Source: Leptotrichia sp. oral taxon 879 str. F0557 (GTDB lineage Bacteria > Fusobacteriota > Fusobacteriia > Fusobacteriales > Leptotrichiaceae). From it: a stretch of DNA of 53,423 bases. The DNA is taken from assembly GCF_000469385.1 (NCBI RefSeq), contig NZ_KI271289.1, forward strand, positions 89,680 through 143,102, in the 5' to 3' direction. The notes beneath the pieces were generated by a model that saw only the letters and a list, made by a program, of their open reading frames with translations, was not told where the DNA came from and ran no database searches. The translations under genes were made by a program, and so were the position numbers. Shown one piece after another: positions 5,443 through 49,712 of this stretch; position 1 is the first letter of the stretch, and the number at the start of each line of letters is the position of its first letter.

Positions 5443-6816
5443 ATGACAGCGATAGTATTTTCAAGTATATGGATAGTGATTTTGATTTTACTGTTCTTTT
5501 TATTGATTCATATAAATGTGAATTTAAAGAAAAAATTTAAGTTTTCTACAAGGATAATAATTTCTACAGTATTGGGATTTGCTGTGGGAATTGTATTTCA
5601 ATCAACGTTAGGATTAGTGGGAGCGGCTGAGCATGAGGTTGTTATAAAGAATGTGACAAATGCAGCTTCGTTAGTAGGGAGAGGATTTACGAGCCTTTTA
5701 AAAATGATAGTTATTCCGTTAGTTGGGCTATCTGTTTATAATTCGATAATTAATTCTAAAAATAATGAGAATTTGAAGAAACTGACCATAAAATCAGTAA
5801 TTTATTATACAGCGACTGTAGCTATTTCGGCGATTATTGGAATTGTAGTTGCAATGACATTTAAGCTGGGAGTTGGAATGAAATTGCCTGAAGGAATGGA
5901 AGCATGGGCTGGAAAAGGGGAATATAAAGGTCTTGTTGATGTTGTAGTCTCGTTTATACCGTCAAATATTTTTAAGGCTATGACAGAAACAAGTGTTATT
6001 GGAGTAGTGATATTTACAGCGTTTTTAGGATTTGCAACAAACCGAGTTGGATTAAAAAATCCTGAGAAAATAAAACCTTTGAAGGACGTAACAGAAGCAT
6101 TGTTTTCAGTAATGACAAGCGTTACGATTACAATAATAAAAATAATTCCGTATGGAGTTGCGGCATTGATGTTTGATTTGACAGCTTCTTATGGGCTTGA
6201 AGTATTTAAAAATCTTGTTACATATCTGATTGTAATGTTTATTTCATTAGGACTGGTTGTAATAATGCAATCTTTAAATCTTGCAATACACGGTGTAAAT
6301 CCACTAAGATATTACAAGAAAGTAACAGCACCGTTAGTTCTATCATTTACAACAACTTCAAGCATGGGAACTTTACCTGTAACAATTGAAACATTGGAAA
6401 AAGAAGTAGGAGTAAGTTCACCAACAGCAAACTTTACGGCAACACTAGGGACAACAATAGGAATGAATGGTTGTGCAGGAGTATTTCCGGCAGTAATAGC
6501 AATAATGATTGCCAATATGAACGGCATTGCAATTACTCCAGTATTTCTAATAAGCCTTATAACAGTAATCGCATTAGGATCGTTTGGTATGGCAGGAGTA
6601 CCAGGAACAGCCTATATTGCAGCGACAGTCGTACTAGGTGGAATGGGATTACCTTTTGCTCCAGTAGCTTTAGTACTGCCAATTGACTCAATAATAGATA
6701 TGGGACGTACAGCAATAAATGTAAACGGTGCAATGGTAGTTTCGACTGTTGTAGACAAAGAAATGGGAACTTTTAATGAAGAAGTTTTTAAAGGGGAAAG
6801 AATAAGTGAAGCATAA
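5443..6816 (+). CDS. Dicarboxylate/amino acid:cation symporter (cystine-type)
   Basis: A 457-residue transporter of the DAACS/SDF family with about eight membrane segments and two re-entrant loops. The substrate signature is clear: SFTTTSSMGTLPVTIETL (the serine-rich HP1 loop), GTTIGMNGCAGVFPA (TM7) and GMAGVPGTAY (HP2). The N-terminal membrane segment followed by NVNLKKKFKFSTR, and the length, fit the TcyP L-cystine subgroup of Bacillus better than GltP. Substrate assignment is inference. It is monocistronic, with TTAGGAGGG before the ATG and a terminator after it. Confidence 0.9.
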   Translation: MTAIVFSSIWIVILILLFFLLIHINVNLKKKFKFSTRIIISTVLGFAVGIVFQSTLGLVGAAEHEVVIKNVTNAASLVGRGFTSLLKMIVIPLVGLSVYNSIINSKNNENLKKLTIKSVIYYTATVAISAIIGIVVAMTFKLGVGMKLPEGMEAWAGKGEYKGLVDVVVSFIPSNIFKAMTETSVIGVVIFTAFLGFATNRVGLKNPEKIKPLKDVTEALFSVMTSVTITIIKIIPYGVAALMFDLTASYGLEVFKNLVTYLIVMFISLGLVVIMQSLNLAIHGVNPLRYYKKVTAPLVLSFTTTSSMGTLPVTIETLEKEVGVSSPTANFTATLGTTIGMNGCAGVFPAVIAIMIANMNGIAITPVFLISLITVIALGSFGMAGVPGTAYIAATVVLGGMGLPFAPVALVLPIDSIIDMGRTAINVNGAMVVSTVVDKEMGTFNEEVFKGERISEA

Positions 6817-47449: not shown

Positions 47450-47477
47450 TTGACTTATAATTAAAATATAGTAAAAT
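47450..47477 (+). promoter_or_regulatory. Promoter of RNA repair gene
   Basis: TTGACT (47450-47455), 16 bp, TAAAAT (47472-47477), about 45 nt before the ATG. Confidence 0.55.
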
Positions 47478-47522: not shown

Positions 47523-49712
47523 ATGAGAACGTTATTATTGTTACGGGGAACAGTTGGAAGTGGGAAAAGCACTTTTGTTAAAGAAAATAATTTGGAGCCA
47601 TATACTCTAGAAGCAGATAAATTCAGGCTTCTACTTTCTAATCCGAAATTAACAAAATTTGGAGATTTTGAGATTTCGCAGAAAAATGACAGGTTGGCTT
47701 GGGAAATGCTTTTTAACTGTCTGGAAGAAAGAATGAAAAGAGGGGAATTTACCGTTGTTGATGCGACACATACTACAAAAAGAGCGATGAATTCTTATAA
47801 GACTCTTGCGGATAAGTATAAATATACAATTTATTATTATCAGTTGGATACGCCACTTGAAGAGTGTATTGAAAATAATAAAAAGAGAGAAAGCTATAAG
47901 CAGGTTGACGAAAATGTTATAAGCAGAATGTTTAGAAATATTCAGAATGAAAAGATTTCGGGAAGTTTTAAGAGAATATTTGATATAAATGAAATTATAA
48001 ATTTTTATGTTGATGATGTAACAGAAAAATATGATAAAGTTCGGATAATTGGGGATATTCATTCGTGCTTTACAGCGATTTCTGAAATTGTGAAGGATTT
48101 TGACAAAAATATCTTGTATGTATTTTTAGGAGATTTTTTGGACAGGGGAATTGAACATAAACAGACACTTTTTTTAATGCTGGATTTATATAAAAAGGAA
48201 AATGTTATAATGATTGAAGGAAATCATGAAATTCACTTGGAAAATTTTGCCAATGATTTTAAAATTAACTCAAAGGAATTTTTAAATGTAACTTTGCCAG
48301 CAATTTTGGAAAATGAAAAAAATATAGATAGTTTTAAAAGGGAAATTCGTAAATTTTATAAAAAATTAAGACAATGTTATGCTTTTAAATTTCACAATAA
48401 TAAAATTCTTTGTACACATGCAGGGCTGTCTTTTGTACCTGATTTGGCACTTGTATCGACTAACAAAATGATAAACGGCGTTGGAAGCTTTGAAACCGAA
48501 ATTGGAGAACTTTATGAGGAAAATTATTTGAAGGGAAAATGTCAGGATTTTGTGCAGGTTCATGGGCATAGAGGTGTAAATTCGACTGAACATTCAATTT
48601 GTCTGGAAGGGGAAGTTGAGTATGGTGGGGAATTGAAATATTTGGATGTAATGCCAGATAAAATTTTGCAAAAATCAGTTATAAACACTGTTTACGATAG
48701 AGATTATTTACAACACGAACTGGAAAAGGCAAAAGAAAACAAGCAGATAAATTTGACAGCGAATGAAGATGTGAATAAATTGATTGTAAGTAAACTAATC
48801 AGTGTTAAAAAGACAAAACCAAACTTGTATTCATTAAATTTTGGAAGAAACGTGTTTCGGAAAAAATTGTGGAATGACTCGACAATTAAGGCACGTGGAC
48901 TTTTTGTGGATGCAGAAACTGGAAAAGTGAAAATAAGAAGCTATAACAAATTCTTTAATTACGGAGAAAATAAATATTCTACAAGAGAATATCTTGAAAA
49001 TAACATAGTTTACCCAGTTACAGCCTACGAAAAATACAACGGATTTTTAGGAATACTTTCAGTTATTGATGAAAAACTTGTATTTGCAACAAAAAGTGTA
49101 ACAAATGGAACACATGTCAAATATTTTGAAACTCTTTTTGAAAAAGCAAGTGAAAAGATGAAAGATGAAATTTTTAGAATTTGCAGTGAAAATGATGTTT
49201 CTATAGTGTTTGAAGTGGTTTCAAATGAAGACAGACATATAGTTGATTATTTTGGAAAGGAACATCTTTTTATCTTAGATGTTATTGATAATAGCCTGTT
49301 TATAAATGGTGTACATGTGGATAACAATTTTAGTAAAAGATTTTTAAAAGAGATAAATTTTGATGATGATGTTATTAAAATGAAAAAGGAAATCAAAAAA
49401 TGCAATAACTTTGACGAAATAATTGACTTGATGGAAAATTATGATAATTTTGAAAATGCTGAAGGTATTGTATTTTGTGCTGAAAATGGACTTATGTTTA
49501 AATACAAGGCAAAGCACTATAGTCTTTGGAAAAAACGGCGTGGAATTCTGGAATTTTATAGAAAAGATTTCAATAGAGCAAAACTTGCTGGAAGATATAA
49601 GGACGAGCAGGAGTTTATTGAATGGCTTACTGAACTTGATAATGATAAAGCTGAAAATGCTCATATTATTGATTTGATGAATGAATATGAGATTAAGAAA
49701 AACAATTTATAG
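47523..49712 (+). CDS. Kinase-phosphatase-ligase RNA repair protein (Pnkp/Rnl1-like)
   Basis: A 729-residue three-domain protein. Residues 1-165: polynucleotide-kinase P-loop, RGTVGSGKST (8-17), VVDATHTTKR and an Arg-rich lid. Residues 170-400: calcineurin-type phosphoesterase with GDIHSCF, FLGDFLDRG, EGNHE, THAGLS and VHGHRG. Residues 430-729: nucleotidyltransferase/RNA ligase with ARGLFVDAETGKV, the AMP-acceptor Lys504 in YEKYNG, IVFEVV, EGIVFCAENG and FKYKAKHY. It could heal (5' kinase, 2',3'-phosphate removal) and seal broken RNA in one chain. The ligase part resembles T4 Rnl1 more than the C. thermocellum Pnkp ligase, and no Hen1 methyltransferase is adjacent. GAAGGGAG precedes the ATG. 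Confidence 0.88.
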   Translation: MRTLLLLRGTVGSGKSTFVKENNLEPYTLEADKFRLLLSNPKLTKFGDFEISQKNDRLAWEMLFNCLEERMKRGEFTVVDATHTTKRAMNSYKTLADKYKYTIYYYQLDTPLEECIENNKKRESYKQVDENVISRMFRNIQNEKISGSFKRIFDINEIINFYVDDVTEKYDKVRIIGDIHSCFTAISEIVKDFDKNILYVFLGDFLDRGIEHKQTLFLMLDLYKKENVIMIEGNHEIHLENFANDFKINSKEFLNVTLPAILENEKNIDSFKREIRKFYKKLRQCYAFKFHNNKILCTHAGLSFVPDLALVSTNKMINGVGSFETEIGELYEENYLKGKCQDFVQVHGHRGVNSTEHSICLEGEVEYGGELKYLDVMPDKILQKSVINTVYDRDYLQHELEKAKENKQINLTANEDVNKLIVSKLISVKKTKPNLYSLNFGRNVFRKKLWNDSTIKARGLFVDAETGKVKIRSYNKFFNYGENKYSTREYLENNIVYPVTAYEKYNGFLGILSVIDEKLVFATKSVTNGTHVKYFETLFEKASEKMKDEIFRICSENDVSIVFEVVSNEDRHIVDYFGKEHLFILDVIDNSLFINGVHVDNNFSKRFLKEINFDDDVIKMKKEIKKCNNFDEIIDLMENYDNFENAEGIVFCAENGLMFKYKAKHYSLWKKRRGILEFYRKDFNRAKLAGRYKDEQEFIEWLTELDNDKAENAHIIDLMNEYEIKKNNL

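Follow-up and report, generated by a model that had tools for sequence, protein, structure and literature searches.

The window, i.e. the whole stretch of 53,423 nucleotides analysed here, contains on its plus strand a reading frame that starts with ATG, extends exactly from position 47523 to position 49712 and encodes a kinase-phosphatase-ligase (KPL) of 729 amino acids. The gene and its features are as follows.

47450-47477, plus strand: promoter-like pair TTGACT-16-TAAAAT, 10/12 match, about 45 nt 5' of the KPL start codon
47509-47513, plus strand: GGGAG, likely Shine-Dalgarno sequence of KPL, read from the sequence
47523-49712, plus strand: KPL, 729 aa, PHROG 8238 type (reading frame, Pfam, PHROG)
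47523-47951, plus strand: predicted 5'-OH polynucleotide kinase domain, aa 1-143, with P-loop G9..K15-S16, D32, R35 and R122 (Pfam AAA_33, structure match)
48039-48590, plus strand: metallophosphoesterase domain, aa 173-356, with D178, H180, D204, N234, H235, H299 and H349 (Pfam, Foldseek)
48819-49709, plus strand: RNA ligase domain and C-terminal helical part, aa 433-729, Rnl1/Trl1 class (Pfam, profile and fold matches)
49032-49034, plus strand: codon of Lys504, the nucleotidyl-accepting lysine of KxxG (84/84 relatives; aligns with the active-site lysine of Trl1)

A HAD-type gene adjoins KPL on one side and the purine nucleoside phosphorylase gene deoD on the other, and deoD or a Cof-type HAD gene is likewise found next to KPL in five related genomes, again without evident phage genes nearby; no gene for an RNA-damage sensor or a ribotoxin adjoins the host copy. 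The promoter-like pair weakly suggests that KPL may be transcribed on its own, such matches being common in AT-rich DNA. KPL does not represent a chance reading frame, since a copy with 63% identity occurs in another genus and full-length homologues are encoded by phages.

Domains, catalytic residues and related repair enzymes

Pfam placed an AAA_33 kinase at aa 4-139 (E 3e-19), a calcineurin-like phosphoesterase (Metallophos) at aa 173-356 (E 5e-15) and an RNA_lig_T4_1 ligase at aa 456-665 (E 1e-28; 100.8 bits compared with a gathering score of 28.3), all above the gathering scores, which bears out the suggestion of a preliminary description of this DNA that a kinase, a metallophosphoesterase and an Rnl1-like ligase are united in one chain. 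The AlphaFold2 model of KPL had a mean pLDDT of 91 and a pTM of 0.62, so that the folds are confident and the placement of the domains is less so. The nearest structures of the kinase domain were those of C. thermocellum Pnkp, Foldseek searches with the model likewise identified the C. thermocellum Pnkp phosphatase (4j6o) as closest to the phosphatase domain, and the solved structure nearest to the ligase domain was fungal Trl1 (E 1e-14), followed by T4 Rnl1 (E 5e-12). In line with this order, a profile search with the ligase domain scored Trl1 at 4e-35 and T4 Rnl1 at 3e-19.

When 84 full-length KPL relatives were aligned, the kinase residues were found to be kept in 81 to 82 of them (82 for K15, D32, R35 and a Ser or Thr at position 16), D178, D204, N234, H235 and H349 of the phosphatase in all 84 and H299 in 83, and position 180 was His in 76 and Gln in eight, three myxococcal copies being among the latter. 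In the ligase domain K476, K504, N506, G507, K524, E564, H572, E647, G648 and K660 are invariant, and R458, K662 and R673 each differ in one of the 84 rows. Lys504, which lies within KYNG, is the nucleotidyl lysine of the ligase, as had been recognized earlier, and both this residue and the other catalytic residues of the ligase are intact. All seven KPL copies of the Fusobacteriota are intact as well, a stop reported inside one of them (G072) being its natural end.

KPL shares with C. thermocellum Pnkp (TIGR04075) the order of kinase, metallophosphoesterase and ligase in a single chain and finds there the nearest structural relatives of its first two domains, but its ligase is of the Rnl1 class instead. 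The NCBIfam Pnkp model TIGR04075 covered only aa 3-303 of KPL with 99 bits compared with a cut-off of 750, and no match to Hen1 above the TIGR04074 cut-off was obtained in the 33 genomes of the family, including that of the host, the weak matches resembling generic methyltransferases. The earlier observation that Hen1 is missing here, unlike in Pnkp-Hen1 systems, was thus confirmed, and KPL was rejected as the Pnkp of such a system given its low score, its ligase class and the absence of Hen1. Similarly, T4 Pnkp and T4 Rnl1 have the three activities and the ligase class in common with KPL, and R54, K75, F77, K99, G102 and K119 of T4 Rnl1 have sequence counterparts in KPL. However, the T4 activities reside in two chains with a HAD phosphatase (PMC3400036), whereas KPL is one chain with a metallophosphoesterase. 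Among the profile and fold matches of the KPL ligase domain, that to fungal Trl1 is the best and includes the C-terminal part, but the domain order of Trl1 (ligase-kinase-CPDase) is the reverse of that in KPL, and Trl1 has a 2H cyclic phosphodiesterase in contrast to the metallophosphoesterase of KPL. Likewise, Pnkp1-Rnl-Hen1 of Capnocytophaga gingivalis is a bacterial system for RNA end healing and sealing, as predicted for KPL, but unlike KPL it consists of three separate proteins, a T4-like Pnkp1, a Pnkp-type ligase and an obligatory Hen1 (PMC4411300).

Phage relatives and chromosomal copies

The PHROG 8238 profile "RNA ligase" matched KPL with 588.6 bits (aa 1-727 to profile positions 1-734 of 737), and both the family and its architecture are already represented in public family libraries. 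Using tblastn, 113 phage records were found to cover at least 80% of KPL, with identities of 47-48% for Fusobacterium phages, followed by SPbeta-like Bacillus, Brochothrix, Staphylococcus, Alicyclobacillus and Lactobacillus phages, and 170 candidate contigs in IMG/VR encode a KPL relative. Cellular copies are fewer and were found in Veillonella parvula SKV38, Fusobacterium vincentii SB055, Lachnospiraceae, Myxococcota and others, in searches that mostly covered one genome per species and included several incomplete MAGs among the carriers; genome contigs gave matches when scanned with an alignment and none when scanned with a single sequence. The RNA ligases of PHROG 8238 from Fusobacterium phage Fnu1 (QBJ04057.1), Brochothrix phage A9 (gp147), Staphylococcus Twortvirinae and SPbeta-like Bacillus phages have the same domains, domain order and catalytic residues as the host KPL at 26-48% identity over the full length. 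Unlike these phage copies, the host KPL is a lone chromosomal gene that is under purifying selection and has no evident phage genes nearby.

In Pseudomonas phage Pyxpy02 (L234 467-2807) a calcineurin-like phosphoesterase (identified by the annotation of the record), an RNA ligase and a polynucleotide kinase are encoded by separate adjoining genes, followed by a PRPP synthetase gene, and this set corresponds to KPL in unfused form. In Brochothrix phage A9 and in Alicyclobacillus phage KKP_3916, genes for a PRPP-synthetase-like protein and a nicotinamide phosphoribosyltransferase (NAMPT) are located directly 5' of KPL, and NAMPT is also encoded near KPL in Staphylococcus phage Clo6 (L050 1418-6196; L052 1357-6238; L053). 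Such NAD+ salvage and RNA repair genes may constitute a counter-defence block in these phages, but NAD+-salvage neighbours were rejected as a rule for phage KPL, with NAMPT nearby in only four of 109 loci.

Among 98 Fusobacteriota genomes KPL was present in seven, the genome of the window (G000), G069, G070, G072, G076, G078 and G084, a count that leaves out two further partial matches (E 1e-4). Six of these carriers form one clade of the same genus, and G084 lies outside this genus. In a KPL tree, which was built with a quick method and SH-aLRT support only and does not settle the order of transfers, the host clade is joined first by G084 and next by the Fusobacterium phages Fnu1 and phiKSUM together with the V. 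parvula and F. vincentii copies. KPL is a lone gene among housekeeping genes in all seven Fusobacteriota carriers including G084 and likewise in V. parvula and F. vincentii, and no phage genes were evident around the host, F. vincentii, V. parvula and G084 copies when the reading frames were inspected directly rather than by a prophage caller, so that residence of KPL in a prophage was rejected for these four copies. One genome of the genus, G071, lacks KPL without any remnant; it groups as the sister of G000 (97.3% over 2784 bases of three genes) with low support, whereas its place inside the carrier clade is well supported.

The predominance of phages in the family, together with the patchy presence in Fusobacteriota and the clean absence from G071, could indicate that KPL is a captured phage gene without any role in the host. 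However, the gene is intact in 7/7 genomes, its surroundings are without evident prophage genes, and the dN/dS of the chromosomal copies within the genus amounts to 0.055-0.088, which indicates strong purifying selection on the protein; inert cargo is therefore an extremely improbable explanation. In our reading anaerobes of several unrelated lineages would have retained a phage-type tRNA-repair enzyme as a stable part of their chromosomes. No description of chromosomal KPL copies under selection or of the co-occurrence with KptA reported below was found in the literature searched, mostly outside subscription journals, and biochemical work may exist.

Cas13a and other RNA-cutting systems

The host had been described as carrying two RNA-cutting defences, Cas13a and a HEPN protein at position 136 of the window, the latter being part of the following set.

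136-1585: three-gene set of a HEPN-like protein, an unknown 177-aa protein and a SecB-like chaperone

The protein at 136-546 matched PF05168 only with E 0.11, below the cut-off, and lacks the RX4-6H RNase motif; as this motif is missing, the protein adds no RNA-cutting system, and its earlier designation as an RNA-cutting defence could not be upheld. Since it is followed by the unknown reading frame and by the SecB-like protein, which matches PADLOC PD-T4-9_C (E 1.7e-19), the set probably represents, as judged by sequence, a toxin-antitoxin-chaperone defence module similar to the triads CmdTAC and MqsRAC (PMC9519451).

Cas13a, in contrast, is indeed encoded in the host genome, by a single gene (1392-aa frame, 463.5 bits) that is located outside the window on contig C40, i.e. 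on another contig than KPL. LshCas13a from L. shahii was shown to cut tRNA anticodons, and the same paper suggested that tRNA ligases might counteract type VI CRISPR (PMC11042736), an idea that would suit the phage copies of KPL no less than the host copy. The presence of Cas13a and its reported tRNA cutting are consistent with the earlier proposal that KPL might mend tRNAs cut by the host's own Cas13a, after which the cell would leave dormancy, but the distribution of the two genes argues against this specific link. Cas13a was detected above the cut-off in five Fusobacteriota genomes, three of which also carry KPL (G000, G069, G072), whereas four of the seven KPL carriers are without Cas13a (G070, G076, G078, G084) and G074 and G085 represent the reverse case, the Cas13a of G074 being about 95% identical to that of the host in the best aligned block. 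Within the genus there was no significant association (Fisher p = 0.27), and the phylum-wide value (p = 0.002) results from six of the seven carriers sharing one clade, so that KPL and Cas13a are not associated beyond phylogeny. In addition, the two genes are unlinked, the nearest relatives of KPL are found in Veillonella and in phages, most members of the family belong to phages with hosts that are not dependent on Cas13a, and a defence of this type would be weakened by constant repair. A dedicated role of KPL in the repair of Cas13a damage is therefore very unlikely. One of the carriers, G072, has a second, different Cas13a gene, which lies on another contig than the first (L012, L016).

Other RNA-cutting partners were tested family by family. 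PrrC/RloC-type anticodon nucleases were rejected as partners, with no KPL carrier but one non-carrier (G088) above the cut-off, and so were Abi_2 HEPN abortive-infection proteins, which are common with or without KPL and show no association with it in the genus (p = 0.56). The distribution of KPL is hence independent of Cas13a, PrrC-type nucleases and Abi_2 HEPN proteins alike, an outcome that the preliminary description had itself named as one that would refute its proposal.

Predicted repair reaction and co-occurrence with KptA

In view of these results KPL is likely to be a self-contained enzyme for the repair of RNA breaks, which belongs to a mostly phage-encoded family, has become a resident chromosomal gene in one clade of the genus and serves general repair rather than Cas13a. 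The ends that result from cleavage by metal-independent ribotoxins are a 2',3'-cyclic phosphate and a 5'-OH (PMC4411300). At such a break the metallophosphoesterase domain of KPL would first free the 3' end of its phosphate, the P-loop kinase would then phosphorylate the 5'-OH, and the ligase would finally adenylylate Lys504, transfer AMP to the 5'-phosphate and seal the break. T4 Pnkp and Rnl1 restore tRNA that was cut with the same type of ends (PMC3400036), and by analogy the substrate of KPL would most likely be anticodon-cleaved tRNA. The host enzyme would then most likely shield translation from those anticodon nucleases that the cell meets, such as toxin-antitoxin, abortive-infection or contact-delivered toxins, and the family might have passed between phages and anaerobes and been retained in the host as a general repair enzyme. 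The view, also taken in the preliminary description, that RNA, probably tRNA, is what KPL is likely to repair was thus supported. By sequence, neither the kinase fold nor the phosphatase fold is specific for RNA, and both could accept DNA ends or other phosphoesters as well, and nothing in the content of the locus names a substrate, which would be compatible with rRNA, mRNA, intron-type RNA or DNA ends as substrates; since characterised ligases of the Rnl1/Trl1 class mend or splice tRNA, however, we consider this unlikely. RtcB was found neither in the genus nor in G084, so that among the RNA ligase families tested KPL alone is represented in the genus.

The relationship of the ligase domain to Trl1 raises the question of what KPL leaves at the sealed junction. 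Like Trl1, KPL might leave or require a 2'-phosphate at this position, which would be removed with NAD+ by KptA/Tpt1 (PF01885), encoded in the host as follows.

G000:C9:10157-10675 (locus L249, about 6146-6706): host kptA

Within the genus KptA was found in 6/6 KPL carriers compared with 0/7 of the other genomes, and across all 98 Fusobacteriota genomes in 7/7 carriers, including G084, compared with 14/91 non-carriers (naive p 8e-6). Both genes are missing in G071, which is nested in the carrier clade, although they are unlinked and lie 127 kb apart in G000, and in the F. vincentii carrier KPL is again accompanied by KptA. The higher scores of the ligase domain to Trl1 than to T4 Rnl1 point in the same direction, and so does the phosphate pocket. 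In Trl1 a sulfate is held by N150, H227, R334 and R337 (PMC6592678). These residues align with N506, H572, K670 and R673 of KPL, of which N506, H572 and a Lys or Arg at 670 occur in 84/84 relatives and R673 in 83/84. T4 Rnl1 has Asp101 at the position of N506.

However, the pocket may hold another phosphate of the substrate, and few independent events underlie the co-occurrence, as six of the seven carriers belong to one clade. The joint loss in G071 may be accidental, because the kptA locus lies at the breakpoint of a rearrangement that has separated its flanks. Moreover, KptA is absent from the KPL carrier V. parvula SKV38 and from all nine KPL phages examined and was found in only 4/14 of the other KPL carrier genomes, so that it was rejected as a universal partner of KPL; it never adjoins KPL in the phage or bacterial flanks examined, and the phages with KptA, among those listed, belong to other groups than the KPL phages. 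In addition, H180 corresponds to the histidine of C. thermocellum Pnkp that favours full phosphate removal, and by this analogy a 2'-OH at the junction is more likely than a 2'-PO4. On balance we regard the removal of a KPL-derived 2'-phosphate by KptA as rather unlikely. If true, it would provide a natural source of RNA 2'-PO4 for bacterial Tpt1, the endogenous substrate of which has been called a longstanding conundrum (PMC6333775), and a genus whose close relatives have both KPL and KptA or neither offers a concrete test of the role of bacterial KptA. If KPL leaves no 2'-phosphate, the co-occurrence of the two genes needs another reason.

H180, the His of the GDxH motif of the metallophosphoesterase, is replaced by Gln in L056, L066, L067, L068, L069, L158, L187 and L200, including the myxococcal copies, and this exchange possibly changes the outcome of the phosphatase reaction. 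KptA is present in two of the three genomes with these myxococcal copies.
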